Origin: Verrucomicrobiales bacterium
GTDB taxonomy: Bacteria; Verrucomicrobiota; Verrucomicrobiia; Limisphaerales; UBA11320
Reading direction: 5' to 3'
Length of the DNA: 64,000 nt
Assembly (NCBI GenBank): GCA_016793885.1
Contig: JAEUHE010000197.1
Location: forward strand, 1 to 64,000
Part shown: one piece after another, positions 4,392-18,900 of the stretch
Position numbering within the stretch: position 1 is the stretch's first letter
Layout: each line of letters opens with the position of its first letter
Notes under the pieces: generated by a model
What the model was told of the DNA's origin: nothing
Databases searched by the model: none
Seen by the model: only the letters and a program-made list of their open reading frames with translations
Made by a program: the position numbers and the translations under genes

Positions 4392-5756
4392 GTGACCAAG
4401 CCATCGCTCAAACAATGGATTCTCGTTCTGATCCCCGCGCTGGTGCTCTGTGGGATTCTGGTGTGGGGTTTTGCCAGCACTCGGAACAGTTTGATGCGGC
4501 TGCGGGATCGGATCGCGGCTGGCAGCCCGGCCAGTTTCAGTGTGGGCCTGCGGTTCCGCGAAACGGTTCGCTCCATGAACGAGGGTTTATTGCGGATTCA
4601 GCTGACGGACAGTGACGAGGAGCGCTTTGGGTTTCATGCTCTGTCGGAGGATCTGACGGAGCAGATTCGGCTCGCTCGGCGGCTGTTGTTGACCCCGGCA
4701 GAGCAGCAGGTCCTTTCGCATTTTGATGAGGAGTTTCGAAGTTATCTCGCGGATACCGTGGCGCTGCAAGGGAAAGGCACCCGGGGCATCCGGCGGGATA
4801 CGACCGCGCAGCTCAAGCAGAAGATCGATGTGAAGTCGGCTCGTCTGCTCGCGCTGGCCGAGGACTTGGTGTCGGGCCAGCAGGTCTCTTGGGCAGCACT
4901 TTCGAGCGACATGCAGCAGACCTTGCACCGGACTCAGGAACTCTGGCGGGTCTCGCTTGGGTTGCTCTCGGCATGCTTGGTCGTGATCTTTTTCCTCGTC
5001 TATCGCGCCTGGATCGCGCCCTTGCGCCTGGAGCTCGATCAGAGCCGTGCGATCATCGACCGGCAAGAGAAGCTGGCGGCGTTGGGCACTTTGGCGGCAG
5101 GGGTGGCGCATGAAATCCGGAATCCTCTGACCGCGATGAAGTTTCGGCTATTCACCTTGGAAAGGAGTCTCCCGGCGGGATTTTCGGATCACGAGGATCT
5201 CTCGATTCTGAAAGGAGAACTCAATCGGCTGGAGAAGATTGTGAAGGATTTCCTACTCTTCGCGCGTCCGGCGGACCCGGACCTGCGGGTGCTTCGGGTG
5301 GATGATTTGTTCGCGGAGATTCTTCGGCTGATGCAGGCCTCGTTGAGCGAGCGGGGGATTCGATTGACACAGGAGCCGGCGCCGGGCCTGCAGATTCAGG
5401 GCGACCTGCAGCAATTAATACAAGTGGTGATGAATCTGGTTCAGAACTCGGCTGAGAGCATCGCCGGCGATGGCACTATCACTCTTTCAGCACTGGTGGA
5501 GAATTCTACGCGGGTGGAAGGGCGCGGCGGTGTCGTTTGCCTCCGCATCACCGACTCGGGACCCGGGATTCCGGACGAGGTTCGGCGGCGTCTGTTTGAT
5601 CCCTTCTTCTCCACCAAGGCTGCGGGGACTGGACTAGGTTTGCCGATCGCTTCCCGCATCGTCGAGAAGCATCACGGTCACATTCAGTTTGAGACCCAAT
5701 TGGGAAAAGGAACAACGTTTAGTGTGGTGATTCCGGGGGAGGTTTCCGATTTATGA
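4392..5756 (+). CDS. Sensor histidine kinase, NtrB/ZraS-like
   Basis: 454 residues from a GTG start. Transmembrane segments are near residues 8-28 and 190-208 and flank a helical periplasmic sensor domain. The cytoplasmic part has the HisKA H-box (GVAHEIRNPLTAMKF), the N-box (NLVQNSAESI), G1 (ITDSGPGIP) and a FFSTK-AAGTGLGLPIA G2 region, the form typical of kinases paired with NtrC-class regulators. Its last four bases overlap the start of the sigma-54 activator that follows, so the two are translationally coupled and form one two-component system. It is divergent from the HlyD operon at 4246, a plausible but unproven target. The stimulus cannot be read from sequence. Confidence 0.92.
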   Translation: MTKPSLKQWILVLIPALVLCGILVWGFASTRNSLMRLRDRIAAGSPASFSVGLRFRETVRSMNEGLLRIQLTDSDEERFGFHALSEDLTEQIRLARRLLLTPAEQQVLSHFDEEFRSYLADTVALQGKGTRGIRRDTTAQLKQKIDVKSARLLALAEDLVSGQQVSWAALSSDMQQTLHRTQELWRVSLGLLSACLVVIFFLVYRAWIAPLRLELDQSRAIIDRQEKLAALGTLAAGVAHEIRNPLTAMKFRLFTLERSLPAGFSDHEDLSILKGELNRLEKIVKDFLLFARPADPDLRVLRVDDLFAEILRLMQASLSERGIRLTQEPAPGLQIQGDLQQLIQVVMNLVQNSAESIAGDGTITLSALVENSTRVEGRGGVVCLRITDSGPGIPDEVRRRLFDPFFSTKAAGTGLGLPIASRIVEKHHGHIQFETQLGKGTTFSVVIPGEVSDL

Positions 5757-7153
5757 GATCCAGAATTCTGCTGATCGAGGATGATCCAGGTGCCGGGACG
5801 GCCCTTCAGAAAGTCATCAAGGCTGAGGGCTACGAGGTGGACTGGGTAACACGGGGAGAGGACGCGCTGCGGCGGGTGGCAGAGCAGGGTTACCAATTGG
5901 TGGTGACGGATCTCAAGCTTCCCGGGCTGAGCGGGCTCGAGTTGGTGCGTCGTTTTCATGCCTCACATCCAAAGCTGCCGCTGATTCTCATGACGGCTCA
6001 CGGCACGACGGAAACCGCGATCGAGGCGATGAAGTTCGGTGCGTTCGAGTATCTGACCAAGCCCTTCGAGGTTGAGGAGTTGCTGTCCGTGGTGGCGGAG
6101 GGGGTTGCGAGTTCTCTGAAGATGTCCGAGCCGGTGCCGCTGGGGGCGCAGGGATCGGAGGTGCGGGGCTTGGTCGGGCGCAGTCGGCCGATGCAGGTGC
6201 TCTACAAGGAGATTGGTCGGGCGGCGGCGACATCCGCCACGGTTCTGATCCGCGGGGCGACCGGGACCGGCAAGGAGCTGGTGGCCCGAGCTGTTTATCA
6301 GCACAGTGATCGGTCGGATCGGCCGTTCGTGGCGATCAACTGCGCCGCGATCCCGCAATCGCTGCTGGAGAGCGAGCTGTTCGGACACGAGCGGGGCGCC
6401 TTCACGAGCGCGGCGGTGCAACGCATTGGCCGCTTTGAGCAGGCTCAGGGCGGGACCTTGTTCTTGGATGAGATTGGTGATCTGCCATTGGACACCCAAG
6501 TAAAACTTCTGCGCGTGCTGCAGGAGAAGGCGTTTCATCGTGTGGGGGGAGATCGGCTGCTGACGGCGGATGTCAGAGTCATTGCGGCCACTCATCGCGA
6601 TCTCGACGCGGCGATCCAGCAGAAGGACTTTCGCGAAGATTTATTTTATCGGCTCAGCGTGGTCACGATTCGGGTGCCGACGCTCAGTGAGCGGGCTGAA
6701 GATATCCCGGAGTTGGTGAAGCACTTCATTCAAAAATATGCTCCGGAGTTGGATATCGCCAGTCCATCCATTCAATCTGAGGCACTGGAAGCGTTGTCGC
6801 GTCATCCTTGGCCGGGCAATGTGCGGGAGCTGGAGAATGTGGTTCGTCGATCCCTGCTCCTGGCGCGTCCTCTGGCGGTATCAGCCGCCCATGTCAGGCA
6901 GGCCTTGACTACTTCATCCCAGACGGGCGCACCCGCTGCGCTTCCGCATGCCGCCTACGTCCAGCAGTTGTTGGATCGCGCGGTCAACGGGGAGCTGGTG
7001 GATGTGTATTGGCGCATGGTGCGGGAGTTGGAAATTGAGCTGTTCACGCAGGCGATGCAGCGAGCCGATGGCAACCAAACCAAAGCCGCTCGCTGGTTGG
7101 GGATTACCCGACTGAAGCTGCGGGAACGGCTGGCGGAATGGGAGAGGAGTTGA
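5753..7153 (+). CDS. Sigma-54-dependent response regulator, NtrC family
   Basis: 466 residues. An N-terminal receiver domain (IEDDPGAG acidic pocket, phospho-acceptor Asp in VVTDLKLPG, conserved Lys in YLTKPF) is followed by an AAA+ domain (about residues 140-370) with Walker A GATGTGKE, Walker B TLFLDEIGDL and the sensor/arginine region YRLSVVTIRVP. A Fis-type helix-turn-helix ends the protein (GNQTKAARWLGITRLKLRERL). The sigma-54-contacting loop reads GAFTSA rather than the canonical GAFTGA. The protein would activate sigma-54 promoters when phosphorylated by the kinase encoded immediately upstream (ATGA overlap). I could not identify a convincing -24/-12 target promoter nearby. Confidence 0.95.
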   Translation: MRSRILLIEDDPGAGTALQKVIKAEGYEVDWVTRGEDALRRVAEQGYQLVVTDLKLPGLSGLELVRRFHASHPKLPLILMTAHGTTETAIEAMKFGAFEYLTKPFEVEELLSVVAEGVASSLKMSEPVPLGAQGSEVRGLVGRSRPMQVLYKEIGRAAATSATVLIRGATGTGKELVARAVYQHSDRSDRPFVAINCAAIPQSLLESELFGHERGAFTSAAVQRIGRFEQAQGGTLFLDEIGDLPLDTQVKLLRVLQEKAFHRVGGDRLLTADVRVIAATHRDLDAAIQQKDFREDLFYRLSVVTIRVPTLSERAEDIPELVKHFIQKYAPELDIASPSIQSEALEALSRHPWPGNVRELENVVRRSLLLARPLAVSAAHVRQALTTSSQTGAPAALPHAAYVQQLLDRAVNGELVDVYWRMVRELEIELFTQAMQRADGNQTKAARWLGITRLKLRERLAEWERS

Positions 7154-7338
7154 ACAGGAGGGGGCCCGGGGACTTGTGTCGGGCGTGCTTATCGTAAACG
7201 CGATCACCCCCTCGCCCCTTCGGAGGACTCCGCTTTTCTCACACCGAGGTCCCGGAGCGGGAAGGGGAACTTGGGATCGATTACGATAACGATTACGATT
7301 AGGACCCGACACCTGACATCCACCCCTTTTCTGCTCCG

Positions 7339-7355
7339 CTTAATCATGGCTTAAT
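7339..7355 (+). promoter_or_regulatory. Putative response-regulator box CTTAAT-N5-CTTAAT
   Basis: A direct repeat of CTTAAT with 11-base periodicity lies 83 bases upstream of the dioxygenase-like gene. The same arrangement, in the orientation of the downstream gene, occurs before the CotH gene and before the OmpR-family regulator. The format equals the PmrA/BasR-type box known for OmpR-family regulators. The rest of the 7154-7438 gap has only a GATTACGATAACGATTACG repeat near 7278 and no gene I can support. Confidence 0.6.
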
Positions 7356-7438
7356 TGCGTTCGGTTTAGCATGGATCTCAACAACCTGGATACCGGTTGA
7401 ACGAAGCAAACGATTGAACCAAGAACCTAACTTAGTTT

Positions 7439-8461
7439 ATGAAACCTCATTCTTTCCATATTCCCCTGGATCGGCGGCGCTTTTTCAAATCGATGGCGAC
7501 GGCCTCAGCTGGCTTTGCGCTGTCTGGTTACCTGGCAGAAGCGCTAACGCTCTCCCCCACGGTGACTCAGGGCCCTTACTATCCGTTGGCGGATGATATC
7601 CCGTTGGATAAGGACAATGATTTGGTGCAGTTGAATGACAGCCTCACCTTGGCAGGTGGAGTCGTTACCTATGTGACGGGCCGCGTGCTGGACTCGAATG
7701 GCAACCCGGTGAAGAACGCCTTAGTGGAGCTTTGGCACGCGGATCGGGAAGGGGACTATCTGTACTCTGCGAGTGCGGGACGGAACTCGGCCTGTGATTC
7801 CAATTTTGCCGGGTTTGGTCAATTTCTCACCGGATCTAGTGGCGCCTTTCGCTTTCGAACCATCAAAGCCGGATTGTATCGGGGTCGAACTCGCCATTTG
7901 CATTGGGGCGTGACCCTGCCGGGTCGGACGACCCGCACCACCACCCAGACATTTTGGGATGAGGTAGCTTATGATTTAAATGGGACCCGCTGGGATACGC
8001 AGAATTCGAATGACAATGTCTTCTCCACGGTTTCCAATGCGGCACAGCGCGCTTCGGTGCTGCTCGCCTACGAGGCGGTTCCTGGGACTACCACTGGCGA
8101 AGTTCAGGCCACTTGGGACTACGTGAGTGGATTTACCCCTTCGGAACCCACTTATCCGAACGGCGGAAGTTTGGTGGTGGCTGGCACCGCCGTAGGCGGC
8201 CTCACGGCGGGCTCGGTTCGCTATCAACTGACGGTGCCTGCTTATGCCGGCTATACCTACGAGATCTACGGCAATCCTACCCTGAGCGATCTCGACTGGA
8301 AGGCCTTGCCTTTCTCCCTCGCGCCGGCCGCCGTAGTGGATCGTCACAAACACACGGCGACCAGCGAAGGTACGTTGACCATCTATGTGGATTCCAAGGC
8401 CGAACGAGGCTTTTACCAAGTCGCGTTCCGGGTCCCGGGTGCGAACACGGGCACTCCTTAA
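7439..8461 (+). CDS. Tat-exported intradiol ring-cleavage dioxygenase-like protein
   Basis: 340 residues. The N-terminus is a twin-arginine signal (DRRRFFKSMATASAGFALSG). The catalytic domain (about residues 35-210) has the intradiol pattern: GPYYP, ALVELWHAD, a candidate iron-ligand Tyr in GDYLYSA, then RTIKAGLYRGRTRHLHWGV, which supplies a second Tyr and the paired His ligands of protocatechuate/catechol dioxygenases. The C-terminal 100 residues are an extra beta-rich extension not found in the classic enzymes. Known family enzymes split catechols between the two hydroxyls; the Tat signal implies a folded, metal-loaded protein outside the cytoplasm. The gene is monocistronic, with an upstream CTTAAT repeat shared with the neighbouring CotH and regulator genes. 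The substrate is unknown. Confidence 0.85.
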   Translation: MKPHSFHIPLDRRRFFKSMATASAGFALSGYLAEALTLSPTVTQGPYYPLADDIPLDKDNDLVQLNDSLTLAGGVVTYVTGRVLDSNGNPVKNALVELWHADREGDYLYSASAGRNSACDSNFAGFGQFLTGSSGAFRFRTIKAGLYRGRTRHLHWGVTLPGRTTRTTTQTFWDEVAYDLNGTRWDTQNSNDNVFSTVSNAAQRASVLLAYEAVPGTTTGEVQATWDYVSGFTPSEPTYPNGGSLVVAGTAVGGLTAGSVRYQLTVPAYAGYTYEIYGNPTLSDLDWKALPFSLAPAAVVDRHKHTATSEGTLTIYVDSKAERGFYQVAFRVPGANTGTP

Positions 8462-8511
8462 GTGCCCAGATTCGGATAAGCACGCTGAGCTTGTTCGTAA
8501 ATCCGGGCACT
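8461..8511. terminator. Hairpin between convergent genes
   Basis: Arms 8461-8473 and 8499-8511 pair over 13 positions with two mismatches (AGTGCCCAGATTC against AAATCCGGGCACT). The hairpin fills the whole gap between the convergent dioxygenase and CotH genes; its arms touch both stop codons. No clear U-tract follows, so it may act as a bidirectional mRNA end structure rather than a classic intrinsic terminator. Confidence 0.5.
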
Positions 8512-10240
8512 AAGGCTTTAAGAGGTACGCACGACGTTCGTCGGCGAACTTTTTGAGCCCTATGGTAGACCGTCCACCTGGTCCACCTGGTCCACCTGGT
8601 CCACCTGGTCCACCTGGTCCACCTGGGGGCCCTCCGGCTTCACCGGCGGTGTCGTCGGTGAGGCTCTTCTCAAAGGCTTCGGTGGAGTTGAGTTTGTGGG
8701 TGTCGGCATGGACCGCCTCAGCGATCTGAGCATGGTAACGTTCGGCGATCGGCCCGAGCTTTTTCCAGTCGAGCCACTCGGTGGCGATATCACGCACATA
8801 GCCGAGATACCGCTGGCGCAGAGCTGGAACGGCCAGCAGTTTGGAGGCGAGGGGCTTGGATGCGTCGCTGGCCGCCACCAATGGGTCGAGTTCCACTCCC
8901 CGGGGAGCGGGGGCGGTCGGTGCGGCGGGGGCCTGAGGCGTAGGCGCGGCACCGACGTCCGGAGCGTTGGGGGGGCGTTGCCCGCGCCCGCGCGGCCCCC
9001 GAGGCGATTCTGGACGCATGAACGTTTCATTCAGGTCATGAGGGATGAGGTGAAAGCGTCCGGTAAGGTCCTGATAGATGCTGTAGTCACTGGTCCGAAT
9101 CCAATAGCCGTCGTTGTTGACGAGTGCATTATCCAGGGCGAGGAATTTGAGCGCTCCCTCGATATCCAGCAGGGGTTCGAGTGCCTTTTCCAACTGGTCG
9201 GCGGGCGTCTCGTTGAGAACCTGACATAGACGGATTAAATCCTTCCATACCTTGGAATCCTCCTTCGTTTTTAGCGTGTAGATCTTGCGGTAGTCCTCGA
9301 TGTTGTCGCCGAGATAAGCCAGTCCACCCCGACCTGCCGGGCTGCCGGGAACTTTCCACCGGGCTCCCTTCGTGGTCTTGTAGGCATCGCGAATGAAATC
9401 TTTGTTGAACGGTTGCGCATTCACGTAAACGCCCCAGGATTCGCCGTTGATCACCACTTCGACAAAGTTGACCTTGGGTGCGGGAATGTATGCGCGGGAG
9501 ATCTCGCTCGCCAAGGCGGTGCGCAGGAAGCTGGGATCGCTGTGAGAGTTCAAGAATTCCAGAGTGCGATAGTTGCCGATGCGTTGATCTTCTTTCACGT
9601 AGTCGAAGGAAAGATTCAGAGATTTCTTCCGTCCTTCGCCTACCATCATGAAGGAGGACATTCCGCGGAAGTGAACCCCCACGTCCGGGTAGACCTTGCC
9701 GTCCACGGTCACTTTGGCGATCAGCTCGACATCGGTGTTCTTGAACGCGGTCATCTGCTTTTCCCAATCGGCGTCTTCGAACTCGAGAAAGAAAGTTCGA
9801 AATGCGGCGGGATCATAGATATCGGCGGCGGGATAGGTTTTGACATCGCTAGGCTTCAGGGCGCGTCCTTTCGTTACGGGCGTCTGCTCCCGCTGAGGGC
9901 CGCCGCGAGGCCCCCGAGGACCTCGACGACCGCGACCGGCCGCCTCCTCCTGTTTCAGGAACTCCATCGCGGCTTTCCGTTCCACGGAATTCAACCGCTT
10001 GTCACCGTCCTGATCAAAGCGTCCGACGAGCTTTTGTTCTTCTTGGGGTCCGCCGGGCGGTCCACCGGGTCCCCCTGGGCCTCCAAAGCCGCCTGGCCCG
10101 GGAGGTTCGTCCCGTCCGGGTCCCTGCGGTGGTCGATCGGCATCGCGGGCCGGTTGGGCATGCGGACGCATCGCACTGAGGCTGAGCCAGCAGAGGGCGA
10201 GCGGTAGAAACCAAGTGGTGGAGAGGAATCGATTTTTCAT
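8510..10240 (-). CDS. CotH-kinase-family exported protein with collagen-like Gly-Gly-Pro tracts
   Basis: 576 residues. A signal peptide (to about residue 29) precedes a Gly/Pro-rich tract, an EF-hand-like loop (FDQDGDKRLNSVE, about residues 75-87) and an Arg/Gly/Pro stretch. The CotH domain (about 140-440) shows GVHFRGMSS, KKSLNLSFDY, LEFLNSHSDPSFLR, a GESWGVYVN strand and the acidic LIPHDLNETF motif. CotH proteins are atypical kinases; in Bacillus CotH phosphorylates spore-coat proteins. A second Gly-Gly-Pro tract near the C-terminus is encoded by six tandem 9-mers (8572-8625). The start is upstream of a CTTAAT repeat site at 10317-10333, shared with the divergent response regulator, which suggests control by that regulator. 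The substrate here is unknown. Confidence 0.9.
   Translation of the reverse strand: MKNRFLSTTWFLPLALCWLSLSAMRPHAQPARDADRPPQGPGRDEPPGPGGFGGPGGPGGPPGGPQEEQKLVGRFDQDGDKRLNSVERKAAMEFLKQEEAAGRGRRGPRGPRGGPQREQTPVTKGRALKPSDVKTYPAADIYDPAAFRTFFLEFEDADWEKQMTAFKNTDVELIAKVTVDGKVYPDVGVHFRGMSSFMMVGEGRKKSLNLSFDYVKEDQRIGNYRTLEFLNSHSDPSFLRTALASEISRAYIPAPKVNFVEVVINGESWGVYVNAQPFNKDFIRDAYKTTKGARWKVPGSPAGRGGLAYLGDNIEDYRKIYTLKTKEDSKVWKDLIRLCQVLNETPADQLEKALEPLLDIEGALKFLALDNALVNNDGYWIRTSDYSIYQDLTGRFHLIPHDLNETFMRPESPRGPRGRGQRPPNAPDVGAAPTPQAPAAPTAPAPRGVELDPLVAASDASKPLASKLLAVPALRQRYLGYVRDIATEWLDWKKLGPIAERYHAQIAEAVHADTHKLNSTEAFEKSLTDDTAGEAGGPPGGPGGPGGPGGPGGPGGRSTIGLKKFADERRAYLLKP
8572..8625. repeat. Six tandem 9-mers encoding Gly-Gly-Pro
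   Basis: GTCCACCTG is repeated six times without change inside the CotH gene. On the minus strand it encodes a (Gly-Gly-Pro)n tract. The perfect copies imply recent slippage, so tract length is likely variable between strains. Confidence 0.9.
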
Positions 10241-10316
10241 CGGCGTTAGGTGATGTGGACGGGCTTCGATCCTACGAATCCCCGTCCTGATTGGCGAGCA
10301 CGATAGCCCTTCGACG

Positions 10317-10333
10317 ATTAAGGCTCGATTAAG
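10317..10333 (-). promoter_or_regulatory. Putative response-regulator box (CotH side)
   Basis: ATTAAG-N5-ATTAAG on the plus strand, that is CTTAAT-N5-CTTAAT reading toward the CotH gene, 76 bases from its start codon. It lies 22 bases from a second, oppositely oriented box that serves the regulator gene. Confidence 0.62.
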
Positions 10334-10355
10334 CGTGGAAAATCGCCATTGGGAT

Positions 10356-10372
10356 CTTAATGATGCCTTAAT
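10356..10372 (+). promoter_or_regulatory. Putative response-regulator box (regulator side, autoregulation)
   Basis: CTTAAT-N5-CTTAAT reading toward the OmpR-family regulator gene, 98 bases from its start codon. With the inverted box at 10317-10333 it makes a symmetric divergent control region between the CotH and regulator genes. Confidence 0.62.
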
Positions 10373-10470
10373 CAGCTGGGTGGCATAGTGTTCAGAGCGA
10401 TGGCGAGGTCGTTGAGCCGCCGTGTTTCGGGCCAGAGGACCAGGGCGTCGCCGAACCAGGAAACCATGGA

Positions 10471-11136
10471 ATGTCTATGAGAGTCTTAGTGGTCGAAGAT
10501 GAACCTCGGCTCCTGCACAACCTGAGCAAGGCGTTGCGTGAGGAAGGATATGCCGTCGACACGGCGGACAAGGGTGGGGACGGCTTGTTCAAGGCCGAGT
10601 CCTACGACTACGATGCGATTCTGTTGGACGTGATGCTGCCGGAACTAGACGGGTGGGAAATTCTTCAACGACTGCGCACGAAGAAGTCGACCCCGGTGTT
10701 GATGTTGACGGCTCGGGACTCGAGTCCGGATCGGGTTCGTGGTTTGGACACTGGAGCGGATGACTACTTGGTGAAGCCGTATGACTTGCCGGAGTTGCTG
10801 GCGCGGTTGCGCGCCTTGATACGACGCACTACGGGCCAGGCCTCGCCGGTCATTGAATTGGGGGACGTCCGGGTGGACACCCGCTCACGAGTCGTGACCC
10901 GTGCGGGAGAGACGATTTCCCTCACGGCGCGCGAGTATTCGATTCTGGAGTACCTGGCGCTGCATCGGGGCGAGGTGGTGACCCGGACAGCGCTCTATGA
11001 ACATTTGTTCGATGAGACCGATAATACCTTGTCGAATTTGGTCGATGTCCATGTGTTCAGCATTCGCAAAAAGCTGGGTCACGATTTGATTGCGACGCGT
11101 CGAGGGCAGGGGTATTGCATCGAGCTTTCACCGTGA
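10471..11136 (+). CDS. OmpR-family response regulator (QseB/PmrA/CusR-like)
   Basis: 221 residues. The receiver domain has the acidic pocket VEDEPRL, phospho-acceptor Asp in ILLDVMLPELDG, Thr in LTARD and Lys in YLVKPYDLPELLARLRAL. A winged-helix DNA-binding domain follows (LTAREYSILEYLALHRGEVVTR to ATRRGQGYCIEL). A start two codons later is equally possible. The stop codon overlaps the start of the cognate kinase gene. Regulators of this subgroup, such as PmrA, bind CTTAAT-N5-CTTAAT direct repeats, and exactly such repeats lie in front of this gene, the divergent CotH gene and the dioxygenase gene. That the protein binds them is inference. Confidence 0.95.
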   Translation: MSMRVLVVEDEPRLLHNLSKALREEGYAVDTADKGGDGLFKAESYDYDAILLDVMLPELDGWEILQRLRTKKSTPVLMLTARDSSPDRVRGLDTGADDYLVKPYDLPELLARLRALIRRTTGQASPVIELGDVRVDTRSRVVTRAGETISLTAREYSILEYLALHRGEVVTRTALYEHLFDETDNTLSNLVDVHVFSIRKKLGHDLIATRRGQGYCIELSP

Positions 11137-12671
11137 TGCGGCTGACTCACTCCATTCGCTGGCGGTTGCAGTTGTGGCTGGGCTTTTTGCTTATCCTCCT
11201 GTTGAGCGGCTTTGGAGTGACAGCCTATCAGCTGTATCGCAATCATCAACTGAGCCGGATTGACGAGGAATTGGAGCGTCAAGTGGCGCAGGTCAGCGCG
11301 GCGGTGAGGATTCGTCCGCCGTTTGAGGGGGGGCGCGGCCCCGGGGGAGGCGGCCCATTTTCGCGTGGTCCTCGGGGTCGGCCTGGGCCGGAGGACTCGG
11401 GTCCCGAGGGCAAACGTCCGCCGCATCCGGGACCGGGGGCGGAGCCGGGGGAGGGGCGTCTGCCCGGCATGTCCCGCGAGTTCAAGCCGTGGTTGCGTGA
11501 GATCCGGTTGTCTCCGGAGATTCTGGGCCAATTTGAGGTCGACCGAAGAGATCGGGCCTATTTTGCGATCTGGGCCCGCAATCAAAATTTGATGAAGGCT
11601 TCCACCAACGCGCCGCCTGAGCTCGAACTTCCGACGCCCGTCAACGACACCCGCACGCACATCCGTTCCCGGGGAGAAATACGCGAAGCCTATCATTTTA
11701 CCGAGATTGGGGAGTGTGTGCTGGTCGGGCGTTCGGTGGCGGAGGACCTGGATTCGATCCGCGCATTTGGCTGGTGGCTGGTGCTGGCGGGTGGAACGGT
11801 GCTGGGGATGGGACTGGGGGGAGGCTGGTGGCTGACGACGCGGGCGATCCGTCCCATCGAGGAAATCAGCGCCGCGGCGAGTCGTATCTCGGCGGGTAAT
11901 TTGTCGGAACGCATCTCCGGGGCGGGAGAAGGGAACGAGTTGGGGAGACTGGTATCCGTGCTCAACTCCACCTTTGCCCGGCTGGAGGCGTCGTTTTCGC
12001 GTCAGAGGCAATTCACCTCGGATGCCTCGCATGAGTTGCGGACACCCCTCGCGGTATTGATCTCGGAGGCGCAGACCACTCTCGCCCGCGAGCGCACCAC
12101 GGCCGAGTATAAGGAAACCGTGGAGAACTGTCTTGAGATCGCGCAGCAGCTGCGGCGGTTGACGGAGTCCTTGTTGAATTTGGCGCGTTCGGATGCGGGG
12201 CAGGATCAATTGGAGCGCGAGCCGGTGGACTTGCAGACTCCGGTGGAGGCTTGTGTGGATCGCGTGCGCGACCTGGCCTCGAGCCGGAGCGTATCCATTC
12301 AAACCGAGCTGCAACCGGCATGTGCGCTGGTGAATGGCGTCCAGATGGAACAGGTCATCCTGAATCTGCTTTCGAATGCGATTCAGTACAATAAGCCGGG
12401 CGGCGAGATACGGCTCAGAACCAGCATGGAGGGAGCGGAGGTGGTCCTGCACATCAGCGATTCCGGTTTGGGGATCAGCGCCGAGGATCTGCCGCATGTG
12501 TTTGAAAGGTTTTTTAGGGCCGATCGATCCCGATCTCGGGCGGACGGCCATTTCGGCCTGGGATTGGCGATCTGCCAGGCCATTGTGGAATCCCACGGCG
12601 GACGGATAAAGGTGACGAGCGAACTGGGGGTTGGAACCTGTTTCAGCGTGTATTTGCCGAGGGCGAAGTGA
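11136..12671 (+). CDS. Sensor histidine kinase with Gly/Pro-rich periplasmic segment
   Basis: 511 residues from the ATG at 11136, which overlaps the regulator stop by one base; GTG at 11133 is an alternative. Transmembrane helices lie near residues 11-31 and 200-222. A HAMP domain (TTRAIRPIEEISAAASRISAG) follows, then HisKA (SDASHELRTPLAVLISEAQ), N-box (ILNLLSNAIQYN), G1 (ISDSGLGIS), F-box (VFERFFRAD) and G2 (GLGLAICQAI). Unusually, the periplasmic domain opens with about 45 residues dominated by Gly, Pro and Arg (about residues 61-107), resembling the low-complexity tracts of the nearby CotH protein. It is the partner of the preceding regulator. The signal is unknown. Confidence 0.94.
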   Translation: MRLTHSIRWRLQLWLGFLLILLLSGFGVTAYQLYRNHQLSRIDEELERQVAQVSAAVRIRPPFEGGRGPGGGGPFSRGPRGRPGPEDSGPEGKRPPHPGPGAEPGEGRLPGMSREFKPWLREIRLSPEILGQFEVDRRDRAYFAIWARNQNLMKASTNAPPELELPTPVNDTRTHIRSRGEIREAYHFTEIGECVLVGRSVAEDLDSIRAFGWWLVLAGGTVLGMGLGGGWWLTTRAIRPIEEISAAASRISAGNLSERISGAGEGNELGRLVSVLNSTFARLEASFSRQRQFTSDASHELRTPLAVLISEAQTTLARERTTAEYKETVENCLEIAQQLRRLTESLLNLARSDAGQDQLEREPVDLQTPVEACVDRVRDLASSRSVSIQTELQPACALVNGVQMEQVILNLLSNAIQYNKPGGEIRLRTSMEGAEVVLHISDSGLGISAEDLPHVFERFFRADRSRSRADGHFGLGLAICQAIVESHGGRIKVTSELGVGTCFSVYLPRAK

Positions 12672-14483: not shown

Positions 14484-15956
14484 TTAGCGGTTCCCGGCCT
14501 TGCTGGGAGTGGCGGTGGCGGACGTGGTGGCGAGCGGGGAGCCTCCCAGTGATTTGTAAACGCGAACGAGGCTCGTGGCGGTGAGTGTCTCGCTCGCGAC
14601 CAGCTGTTCCTGGAGGCTCAACAGCGTACGCTCGGCATCAAGCACCCCGAGGAAATCCGAAACCCCATCCCGATAGCGTTGGCGGGCGAGGGCCACAGCC
14701 TCGGCGGCCGCGCGTTCGGCTTCCCTCAGAAAGCCCAGGCGCTGGCGCTGTCCCGAAAAGCCAACTAAAGCGTTTTCCGTTTCCTCGAGGGCCAGGAGAA
14801 CCGTCTTTTCATAGGTGACGAGAGCCCCTTCAGCGCGAGAATTGGCCGCTTTGATGCGTTGGCGTACCCGACCAAGGTCCAGCGCGGCCCAGGATAGGTG
14901 AGGTCCAAAGCCCCAGGCATCGGTTCCCGCATCGCCGAATCCGGAGAACCGGTTAGCCTGGAGTCCGATGCTGCCGACGAAGGTGACACTCGGGAAAAGG
15001 TCTGCGGTTTCGACCCCGATGCGGGCGGTGGCCGCCGCCAGCGACCGTTCTGCCGACCGTAGATCCGGTCTTCGGCGGAGCAGATCGGCCGGAGATCCCA
15101 GGGGCACCTGGGTCGGGAGGGTAGGCAAGGGGGCAGTGGGGCGAAGTTGCTCCTTCAGGCCAGCCGGAGGAAGCCCGCACAGAACGGCCAGCCGATGTTT
15201 GGCTTGCTCGAGGTCGGAGTGCAGCGGAGCGATGGTGGCCAACGTGGCATTCAGGAGCGATCGCGCCCGAGCGACGTCCAGTTGGGTGCCCTGTCCGCCG
15301 TCGCGGAGCGCTTGCGCCAGGACCAGGATTTCGGTCTGGTTCGTGGCATTGCGCTCGGCCACGACCAGCTGATTTTGCAGGCCACGCAGATCCAAATAAT
15401 TGAGCGCGACCTCGGCCCGTACACTGATCAGCACATCGTCCCGAGAGGCTTCGACAGCTTCGATGGTGGCTCGGGCCGCCTCCACGTTGCGGCGGGATTT
15501 TCCCCACAAGTCCAATTCCCAGGTGGAGTCGAAACCGACTCGATACAGTTCGTTGTGTCGGCCGGAGCGATCGCGGTCCGACTGGGTGGCTCGGCTGGTT
15601 TGGGTGTTCTCGTAATAGTTTTGGCTTCGTATCGTGGGAGCGAAGTCAAAGCGTGCCTGGGTCCAGAGAGCCCGTGCCTCCTGAAGCCGCGATTGCGCGA
15701 TCCGAAGGTCGTGGTTGTTGGTGGCGGCGGAGTGGATCAGCGACTCCATGAGGGGATCGCCGAAGCCGCGCCACCATTCGGTTTCGGCCGGCGCGGAGGT
15801 GTCGCCGAGCGCGCCGGCTTGCTCGAACTGGGCTGGATGGAGGTTCGTCGGTTGACGGTAGCGGGGTCCGACGGCGCATCCCGTGGCAAGCAGCAGGGTT
15901 GAGGTGCAGCAGAGTATATCGATCAACCGGGAGAACTGGGTGTGAAAGCGGGTCAT
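14484..15956 (-). CDS. RND efflux outer membrane lipoprotein, NodT/OprM type
   Basis: 490 residues. A signal peptide ends in a lipobox (LLATGCAVGP, Cys near residue 27), so the mature protein is lipidated. Two OEP repeats follow, with family motifs TEWWRGFGDPLMESLIHSA, SRLQEARALW, GLQNQLVVAERN and RRPDLRSAERSLAAATARIGV. It is the outer-membrane channel of a tripartite pump; the inner-membrane RND protein starts upstream with only a 1-base gap, and the adaptor precedes that. All three are on the minus strand, divergent from a LysR-type regulator. The substrate is not inferable, though this architecture usually exports hydrophobic drugs or metabolites. Confidence 0.93.
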   Translation of the reverse strand: MTRFHTQFSRLIDILCCTSTLLLATGCAVGPRYRQPTNLHPAQFEQAGALGDTSAPAETEWWRGFGDPLMESLIHSAATNNHDLRIAQSRLQEARALWTQARFDFAPTIRSQNYYENTQTSRATQSDRDRSGRHNELYRVGFDSTWELDLWGKSRRNVEAARATIEAVEASRDDVLISVRAEVALNYLDLRGLQNQLVVAERNATNQTEILVLAQALRDGGQGTQLDVARARSLLNATLATIAPLHSDLEQAKHRLAVLCGLPPAGLKEQLRPTAPLPTLPTQVPLGSPADLLRRRPDLRSAERSLAAATARIGVETADLFPSVTFVGSIGLQANRFSGFGDAGTDAWGFGPHLSWAALDLGRVRQRIKAANSRAEGALVTYEKTVLLALEETENALVGFSGQRQRLGFLREAERAAAEAVALARQRYRDGVSDFLGVLDAERTLLSLQEQLVASETLTATSLVRVYKSLGGSPLATTSATATPSKAGNR

Positions 15957-15957
15957 A

Positions 15958-18900
15958 TCAGGATTGGGAGGGGGGCGGCGTCATCGCCTGAGACTTATTG
16001 CCACTGGCTGCGCGCACCACCAGGTAGAACACGGGCGTGAGCAGCAGTCCGAAGAAGGTCACGCCCAGCATTCCATAGAATACTGCGGTTCCCAGGGCCT
16101 GGCGCATCTCGGCCCCGGCGCCGGTGGCTCGCAGCAGCGGCACTACCCCCAGGATGAAGGCAAAACTCGTCATCAGAATCGGGCGCAGCCGGAGTCGGCA
16201 GGCCTCGACGGCTGCGCTGAAGCGATCGAGTCCCGCCTGCTCGCGCTGGCGGGCGAACTCAACAATCAGGATGGCGTTTTTGGCGGACAACCCGACCAGA
16301 ACCACCAAGCCGATCTGGGTGAAGATGTCGTTGTCGCGTCCATTGAGCCAGACTCCGCCCATGGCGCTCAACAAGCACATCGGCACGATCAAAATGACCG
16401 CCAGCGGCAAGCCCCAGCTTTCGTATTGCGCCGCGAGCACGAGAAACACGAACACGACGCAGAGCGGGAAGATAAAGAGAATCGTATTCCCGGCAATGAT
16501 CTGCTGGTAGGTGAGATCGGTCCATTCGATGGTGAATCCTGATGGCAGGACATCCCGGGCCAGTTTCTCCATTTTTGAGATCATCTGACCGGAACTGACG
16601 CCCGGTGCCGTGCTGCCGCTGATGTCGGCCGAATAGAAGAGGTTGTAACGTTGCAAGCGATCCACACCGCCGATTTTCTCCACTTTGGCGAGGGCCCCAA
16701 GCGGAACCATCTGGCCTCGGGAGTTTCGGGTTTTCAGCTGATGAATGCTATCCGGCGTGACGCGAAACCGGGGTTCGGCCTGCGCATAGACCTGCCAGGT
16801 TCGCCCGAACAAGTTGAAGTCATTGACATAGACGGAGCCCATGAACGTCTGGAGGGTCTCACCGACATCGGCCATGCTGACTCCCATGCTCTTGGCCTTG
16901 GCGCGATCGATTTGGATGCGATATTGGGGCACATTCGCACGAAAGCCGGAAATCAGCGACACGAAATCAGGATCCCGCTGAGCCGCTTCCAAGAGCAGGC
17001 GGGTGGCGCCTTCGAGGGGGATGAGGCCGGCGTTGTTGAGGTCCTGGACTTGCACTTTGAACCCGCCCGCATTTCCTAATCCGCGCAGGGATGGCGGTGG
17101 AAGCACCAGCACCCGCCCCTCCTGGATGGAGGAGAATTTCTGACGAATAGTGGCCAGCATGCGATCGCCCCGCAGAGCCGGGTCTTTTCGGTTCTGAAAT
17201 GAATCCAGCACCAAGAACGCGGCGCCTACGTTGGGCTGGTTGGCCTGCAGCACGGAGGAGTAGCCGGAGATCGCGAACGTATGGCTGACACCGGGGATGG
17301 TTCGCGCCATCGCATCCACCTCGCGGACCACGGCATCGGTTCGTTCGAAGGATGAGGCATCGGGCAGTTGAATCACGACGATGAAGTAACCCATGTCCTG
17401 CACGGGAATGAACCCGGTGGGCACTTTGGCGAACGTGAATAGACCTAGTCCGACGAGACCCGCGTATCCGACCAGAACCAGCGTGGTGATGCGGAGCAAC
17501 CGTTTCACGAGGCCGGCGTAGAGATCTCCGGCGCTTTGAAAACCCCGGTTAAACGCGCGGAAGAACCAGCCGAACACGGCATCCAGGATCCGGGTGAGGC
17601 GGTCCTTGGGCGCCCCGTGCTCAGGCAGGAGCAGCGCGCACAGGGCAGGGCTGAGAGTGAGGGAGTTGAACGCGGAGATGACCGTGGAGACCGCGATGGT
17701 CAGGGCGAACTGCTTATAGAACTTGCCAGTGATGCCCGTGATAAAAGCGGTGGGCACGAACACGGCGCAGAGCACCAAGGCCACCGCGATCACCGGGCCG
17801 GTTACCTCGGCCATCGCCTGAAGGGTCGCGGCGCGCGGCTTGAGCCCTTTGGAGATAAACCTCTCCACGTTTTCGACCACGACGATCGCGTCATCCACGA
17901 CAATGCCGATGGCCAGCACGATGCCGAAGAGAGACAGATTATTGAGCGAGAAATCGAACAGCTTCATTACCGCCAGCGTGCCGATCAGCGAGACGGGGAC
18001 AGCCAGGAGGGGGATGATGGAGGCCCGCCAGCTCTGCAGAAAGACCACCACCACAATGACCACCAAGACGATGGCTTCCAGCAAGGTCCACAGCACCGCC
18101 TGAACCGAGGCCCGAATAAACTGAGTGGGATCGTAGTTGATCCGGTAATTCACGCCGGGCGGGAAATCTTTCTTGAGCTCGAGCAGCGTGGCGTACACCT
18201 CGTCCGCAGTTTCCAAAGCATTACTGCCGGGCAGCTGGAATACCCGAAGGGACACGGCGTTGTACCCGTCCATGTAGGTTTTGGTGGAGTAGTCCCGCGC
18301 GCCCAATTCGACTCGGGCGACATCTCCCACCCGCGTGACTTCTCCCTCTGCGCCCGTCTTTACCACCACGGCGCTGAATTGTTCGGCTGTCATCAGCCGA
18401 CCCTGAGCCACCAGGGTGTATTGAAAATCGGTTCCTGAAGGCACCGGGGGTTGGCCGAGGGAGCCGGCGGCGATCTGCAGGTTTTGTTCCCTCAGCGCCC
18501 GGGTGACATCTCCGGCGGTGAGGTGGCGGGCGGCGAGCTTGTCGGGATCCAGCCAAATTCGCATGGTGAAATCCTGACCGCCCAGGGAATTCGCTTCGGC
18601 GACCCCTTTGATGCGTGCGATGCGATCTCGCACTTGGAGCGTGACGTAGTTGGCGAGGTAGGCGACGTTCCGTGAGCCATCGGGGCTGTAGAATTGAGCC
18701 GCCAACGTGAGGTCGGGGGACTGCTTGCGGGCAATGATGCCCAGTCGTCGCACGTCCTCAGGCAGTCGGGGCGACGCGCTGTTGACACGGTTTTGCACCA
18801 GTACCTGGGCTTCATTGAGGTCGGTCCCCAGTTCGAACGTGATCGTGATCTGCACTTTGCCATCACTGGTGCTGGAGGATGACATGTAGAGCATTCGTTC

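Follow-up and report, generated by a model that had tools for sequence, protein, structure and literature searches.

A rare tandem box very probably marks a small two-component regulon with CotH kinase and dioxygenase genes in a Verrucomicrobiales bacterium

In a Verrucomicrobiales bacterium (assembly GCA_016793885.1), the genes for a two-component system of the OmpR type and for a CotH-type kinase and a dioxygenase, both exported, very probably form a co-regulated set that is real and previously undescribed. The regulator, CotH and dioxygenase genes are each preceded by the box CTTAAT-N5-CTTAAT, and the proposal rests on relatives, which conserve this box and, always equally far from it, a promoter element. 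We consider it highly likely that the two-component system positively autoregulates and activates a small regulon by way of the 17-bp tandem box. The window analysed here is the whole 64,000-nucleotide stretch at positions 1 to 64,000 of contig JAEUHE010000197.1.

Three tandem boxes and the genes behind them

The features of the locus, in window coordinates, are as follows.

7339..7355, plus strand: box CTTAATCATGGCTTAAT, exact match, 83 bp 5' of the dioxygenase gene start (7439)
7367..7372, plus strand: putative -10 hexamer TAGCAT (dioxygenase), 11 bp 3' of the box, conserved spacing
7439..8461, plus strand: intradiol ring-cleavage dioxygenase-like protein, 340 aa (PF00775, 64.9 bits against a cut-off of 27.3)
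8510..10240, minus strand: CotH kinase family protein, 576 aa, with Gly/Pro-rich segments (PF08757, 137.2 bits against 23.8)
10300..10305, minus strand: putative -10 hexamer TATCGT (CotH), 11 bp 3' of the box, conserved spacing
10317..10333, minus strand: box CTTAATCGAGCCTTAAT, exact match, 76 bp 5' of the CotH start (10240, minus)
10356..10372, plus strand: box CTTAATGATGCCTTAAT, exact match, 98 bp 5' of the response regulator start (10471), conserved before orthologs
10384..10389, plus strand: putative -10 hexamer CATAGT (regulator), 11 bp 3' of the box, conserved spacing
10471..11136, plus strand: OmpR/PhoB-family response regulator, 221 aa (Response_reg 103.5 bits, Trans_reg_C 74.1 bits, both above their cut-offs)
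11136..12671, plus strand: sensor histidine kinase (HAMP, HisKA, HATPase_c), its start codon overlapping the regulator stop

A sequence-only reading of this DNA had described the three boxes and their distances of 83, 76 and 98 bp to the start codons. All three are present at those positions and on those strands with zero mismatches, and the distances agree with the annotated starts; for the regulator the distance becomes 104 bp if the second ATG (10477), the start position in its orthologs, is the true start. Is the pattern rare enough to carry meaning? The same reading had seen no further pair in the window, judged chance improbable and proposed a genome-wide count. In a pattern search of the whole genome, the exact box occurs only at these three sites, in the window as in all 8,695,210 bp (8.70 Mb), none more than 3.2 kb from where the regulator gene begins; the motif is thus rare and not randomly common. 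The number of exact boxes expected in the window lies between 0.0005 under a first-order Markov model and 0.0012 from base composition; for the genome it is 0.07-0.16, and a reversed control pattern gives 0 exact matches in the same 8,695,210-bp genome. With two mismatches allowed, the genome yields 112 box matches against 142 for the reversed control. In the absence of an excess at this level, the signal consists of the three perfect sites and very few near-perfect ones, and a large degenerate regulon is unsupported.

The dioxygenase has the PF00775 fold and, aligned to the protocatechuate dioxygenase beta chain (2pcd), keeps the GDY, GLY and HLH positions. The Tyr/Tyr/His/His residues found there, which we take to be the iron ligands, together with the fold identify it as a member of the intradiol dioxygenase family. 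Its N-terminus is twin-arginine-like (RRRFFK), so that the enzyme probably acts outside the cytoplasm.

The CotH protein belongs to the CotH kinase family by its PF08757 score, has a predicted kinase activity and matches the Bacillus CotH structure 5jd9; that it modifies the envelope, as first proposed, is a guess. Kinases of this type are hugely expanded in these bacteria, and we found no literature on their control. The genome itself contains 67 CotH kinase family matches in 8.7 Mb, many of them in open frames of 1,400-3,300 aa; such matches were present in just 3 of 14 control genomes. Given 67 matches, only a very small CotH subset is tied to this regulatory system, and among 30 CotH paralog loci examined the combination of box and -10 element was present at the window gene only.

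Several minor features accompany these genes. The CotH gene ends in tandem CCACCTGGT repeats (8570-8625) that translate into a collagen-like GGPGGP tail, and similar Gly/Pro-rich stretches occur in the N-terminal part of CotH and in the periplasmic region of the sensor kinase. The intergenic stretch at 7180-7310, 5' of the dioxygenase box, combines an inverted-repeat-like GC-rich segment with GATTACGATAACGATTACGATTA repeats and is possibly a dispersed repeat element. An NtrB/NtrC-type two-component pair (4392-7153) lies directly upstream of the dioxygenase gene and lacks the box.

Conservation of the box and promoter layout in relatives

The regulon reading had named its own counter-evidence: a box absent before orthologous genes in relatives that keep the regulator. 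Relatives instead retain the box 5' of orthologous regulator, CotH and dioxygenase genes. We surveyed 293 genomes of the order, 111 of which have a regulator ortholog at E <= 1e-75. Some close-ortholog loci were chosen for retrieval because they bear a box, but the box counts rest on this ortholog list, which is independent of the boxes and of which all but a few places were retrieved. Within 400 bp upstream of regulator orthologs of at least 71% identity, 26/51 have the exact box and 46/51 have it with at most two mismatches, and some orthologs show no recognisable box; the reversed control gave 0 exact matches and 5 at up to two mismatches before the same 51 genes. Orthologs of 66-71% identity mostly have CTTCAT-N5-CTTAAG in the same position, and regulators below 60% identity, mostly paralogs from this genome, have no box even at two mismatches (0/13).

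At the level of whole genomes, an exact box is found in 36 of the 53 that have a close ortholog and in 14 of the 182 that have none (Fisher p 2.4e-18), the latter figure meaning that single boxes can be due to chance or belong to another regulator. Several of the boxes come in divergent pairs that separate the regulator gene from CotH or from CotH partner genes, and a CotH gene lies within about 6.5 kb of the regulator for 15/26 close orthologs against 1/32 in the distant clade.

We aligned the DNA that follows 32 boxes located 5' of regulator, CotH or dioxygenase genes. An A at +13 and a T at +17, which are positions 2 and 6 when counted within a -10 hexamer, are each present in 31/32, and a YANNNT hexamer begins exactly 11 bp 3' of the box (+12 to +17) in 29/32, all three window sites included; other offsets account for 0-2 of the 32. 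This fixed -10 element provides independent evidence of a promoter. None of the three window boxes coincides with a consensus sigma70 -35/-10 promoter, so the box occupies the place of a -35. A box at a fixed distance from the -10 and the lack of a strong -35 are the layout of class II activation at sigma70 promoters, as expected for an activator of the PhoB/PmrA type, with stimulation of transcription as the prediction. Where promoters are activated, pho boxes likewise keep a strict distance from the core promoter (PMC10294691), and they are built from 11-nt tandem repeat units (PMC4415409), the two properties that PhoB shares with the present system; its half-site (CTGTCAT in E. coli) and its targets differ.

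The regulator, its kinase and related systems

What kind of regulator might read the box? The sequence-only reading had assigned it to the PmrA/QseB class. Membership of the OmpR family and the PmrA-type half-site bear this out in part, whereas the scores for PmrA (BasR) (NF007928, 204.5 against 330 bits, second-best) and QseB (NF007663, 177.4 against 345 bits) fall below the equivalog cut-offs. The best-scoring model is CzcR/SilR/CopR (TIGR01387), also below its cut-off (228.2 against 279.2 bits), and the sensor kinase is similarly placed with CzcS/SilS/CopS (TIGR01386, 257.5 against 292.55 bits). CzcR/SilR/CopR regulators use inverted-repeat boxes; here, we saw no metal-efflux gene directly behind the boxes. 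An assignment of the regulator as a PmrA ortholog was rejected on the missed PmrA equivalog cut-off.

Solved structures closest to the regulator include PmrA/BasR (4s04, 8jo2), and the three exact tandem CTTAAT boxes with a 5-bp spacer are of the PmrA (BasR) type. As in Klebsiella, Salmonella and E. coli PmrA/BasR, the box is head-to-tail with an identical half-site; the proposed targets here, in Verrucomicrobia, are genes for CotH, dioxygenases, VTC proteins and cytochromes. PmrB, the partner of PmrA, has a short periplasmic loop with an ExxE iron motif. In contrast, the periplasmic region of the kinase described here is large, at about 150 residues; a structure model predicts that it contains a small domain of beta-sheet and a Pro-rich insert that is disordered, and it has no Pfam match. 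Orthologs of the kinase are 48-60% identical. The half-site 5'-CTTAAT-3' is contained in the Klebsiella PmrA box (PMC3973317).

Of the recognition-helix residues that have been proposed as base readers in PmrA, the regulator keeps Asn188 and His193 and has Phe-Ser (its Phe196-Ser197) in place of His195-Asn196, where the clade with the CTTAAG box has Ser-Asn. Across 70 orthologs, Ser at the His195 position is paired with a box ending in G in 34/34, and Phe or Tyr with one ending in T in 35/36. On the tree these correspond to only two or three helix/box changes, too few for significance, so that the co-variation is suggestive of, and not proof for, direct reading of the box by this regulator.

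Regulon content, proposed mechanism and alternatives

Which further genes follow the box? In relatives it stands upstream of CotH genes (for example at loci L122, L125, L131, L133 and L137), of VTC-domain genes (L121, with a DUF4956 neighbour, and L156), of genes for planctomycete-type cytochromes or EF-hand proteins (L141, L142, L126, L148 and L296) and of a MauG/CCP peroxidase gene (L150). At locus L124 boxes precede a dioxygenase gene and a gene for a phosphodiester glycosidase-like protein, and one box-led cluster (L123) includes a DUF3500 gene. Dioxygenase orthologs are rare (16/293 genomes). The gene is divergent from or near the regulator in G622, G428, G404 and Haloferula sp. BvORR071, and orthologs also occur with the box, in some cases with one to three mismatches, and a -10 at 11 bp. 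In Haloferula sp. BvORR071 the regulator, 70% identical, faces two dioxygenase genes across a CTTAAC-N5-CTTAAT box that is followed by a -10 at 11 bp. Some dioxygenase orthologs have no box; in G431, G450 and G495 the dioxygenase gene adjoins a CotH gene.

When a -10 at 11 bp was added to the scan of the bacterium's own genome, a single further good site emerged, on contig C256 (13761-13777, minus): CATAATGTCCTCTTAAT, followed at 11 bp by TAGGGT, with an ATG 23 bp away, before a gene for a secreted subtilase-like/PKD protein. A spacing of 10 bp adds a site on contig C60 (34096-34112, minus), CTTCAT-N5-CTTAAT with TAGAGT 10 bp downstream, 5' of a CotH gene with a lamin-tail domain that probably belongs to the same regulon.

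We propose that the kinase would sense an envelope signal and then phosphorylate the regulator, which would occupy the box as a head-to-tail dimer, with each 11-bp half contacted by a single subunit. As the box precedes a sigma70-type -10 by 11 bp and stands at the position of the missing -35, which it would replace, the bound dimer would recruit RNA polymerase, like PhoB and PmrA, to the regulator/kinase operon (10471-12671), the divergent CotH gene and the dioxygenase gene. These three units would form the core regulon in this genome, and the near-perfect sites would add the second CotH gene on C60 and the subtilase-like gene on C256. We infer direct binding, activation and not repression, dependence on phosphorylation, and co-induction of the exported kinase and the exported dioxygenase by one envelope signal. 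A link to metals or catechols, drawn from the kinase family and from cytochrome and MbnP-like neighbours in relatives, is a guess.

Could the boxes instead be functionless, a likeness of AT-rich intergenic DNA that arose by chance or shared ancestry? The half-site is short and two-mismatch matches show no genome-wide excess, yet three exact sites lie within about 3 kb where 0.07-0.16 are expected per genome, and the box is conserved across many families despite unrelated flanking DNA, a phylogenetic footprint that contradicts this explanation and leaves it with hardly any probability. Less remote, and still improbable, is a role as repression operators, with the regulator, phosphorylated or not, covering the -35/-10 region and coming off only upon a signal: the box overlaps the -35, a position that would suit a repressor too, and OmpR-family members can repress, PhoB being a dual regulator (PMC10294691). 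A repressor, however, needs neither a -10 at a strict 11 bp, as seen in 29/32 promoters, nor the absence of a good -35.

A somewhat smaller probability attaches to boxes that are real and read mainly by another OmpR-type regulator, the adjacent regulator being one more target. About ten further full-length OmpR-type regulators are encoded in the genome, and comparable boxes are present in some genomes that have no close ortholog; but box presence tracks the ortholog of the adjacent regulator and its helix residues, and the remaining regulators have no box. Autoregulation is also common in two-component systems of the OmpR type. The rarity of the box, its conservation before the orthologous regulator, CotH and dioxygenase genes and the fixed -10 spacing thus support the originally suggested regulon, activated by the adjacent system.

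Autoregulated OmpR-family two-component regulons are known as a kind, and we did not find this member or its targets described in the literature searched; work on CotH with two-component systems, VTC/DUF4956, Verrucomicrobia or intradiol enzymes yielded no such regulon, and no paper found there connects a group of CotH genes with an intradiol dioxygenase or with a two-component regulator of the tandem-box kind. CotH and VTC domains are reportedly mentioned together in one Clostridium perfringens paper (PMC2879425), and in the relatives studied here box-led VTC-domain genes, one with a DUF4956 neighbour, stand in a CotH cluster. Tentatively, and with a confidence somewhat short of even, we suggest that a PmrA-like, non-orthologous system of this order may act through the PmrA half-site to activate a coherent surface programme of CotH, VTC/DUF4956, exported dioxygenase and planctomycete-type or MauG-type cytochromes. 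If true, bacterial CotH kinases would thereby gain a first defined control circuit that is unconnected with sporulation. Box, cognate regulator and fixed promoter layout together offer a handle for finding CotH co-workers and the signal, and an identical half-site with a non-orthologous regulator, in a group that includes a clade with a joint box/helix change, provides a natural test of OmpR-family specificity.

Two further observations concern boxes in other settings. Near the regulator of G404, at 15076-17250 of locus L301, one gene product combines an MbnP domain with a MauG-type di-haem peroxidase domain, and in its vicinity is a CTTAAT-N5-CTTAAG box accompanied by a -10. In G290 and G224, which belong to another order of the class, exact boxes about 1 kb apart precede amidohydrolase and small P-loop kinase genes, and a -10-like element follows after about 10 bp; these are perhaps read by a different regulator with the same half-site and were set aside.
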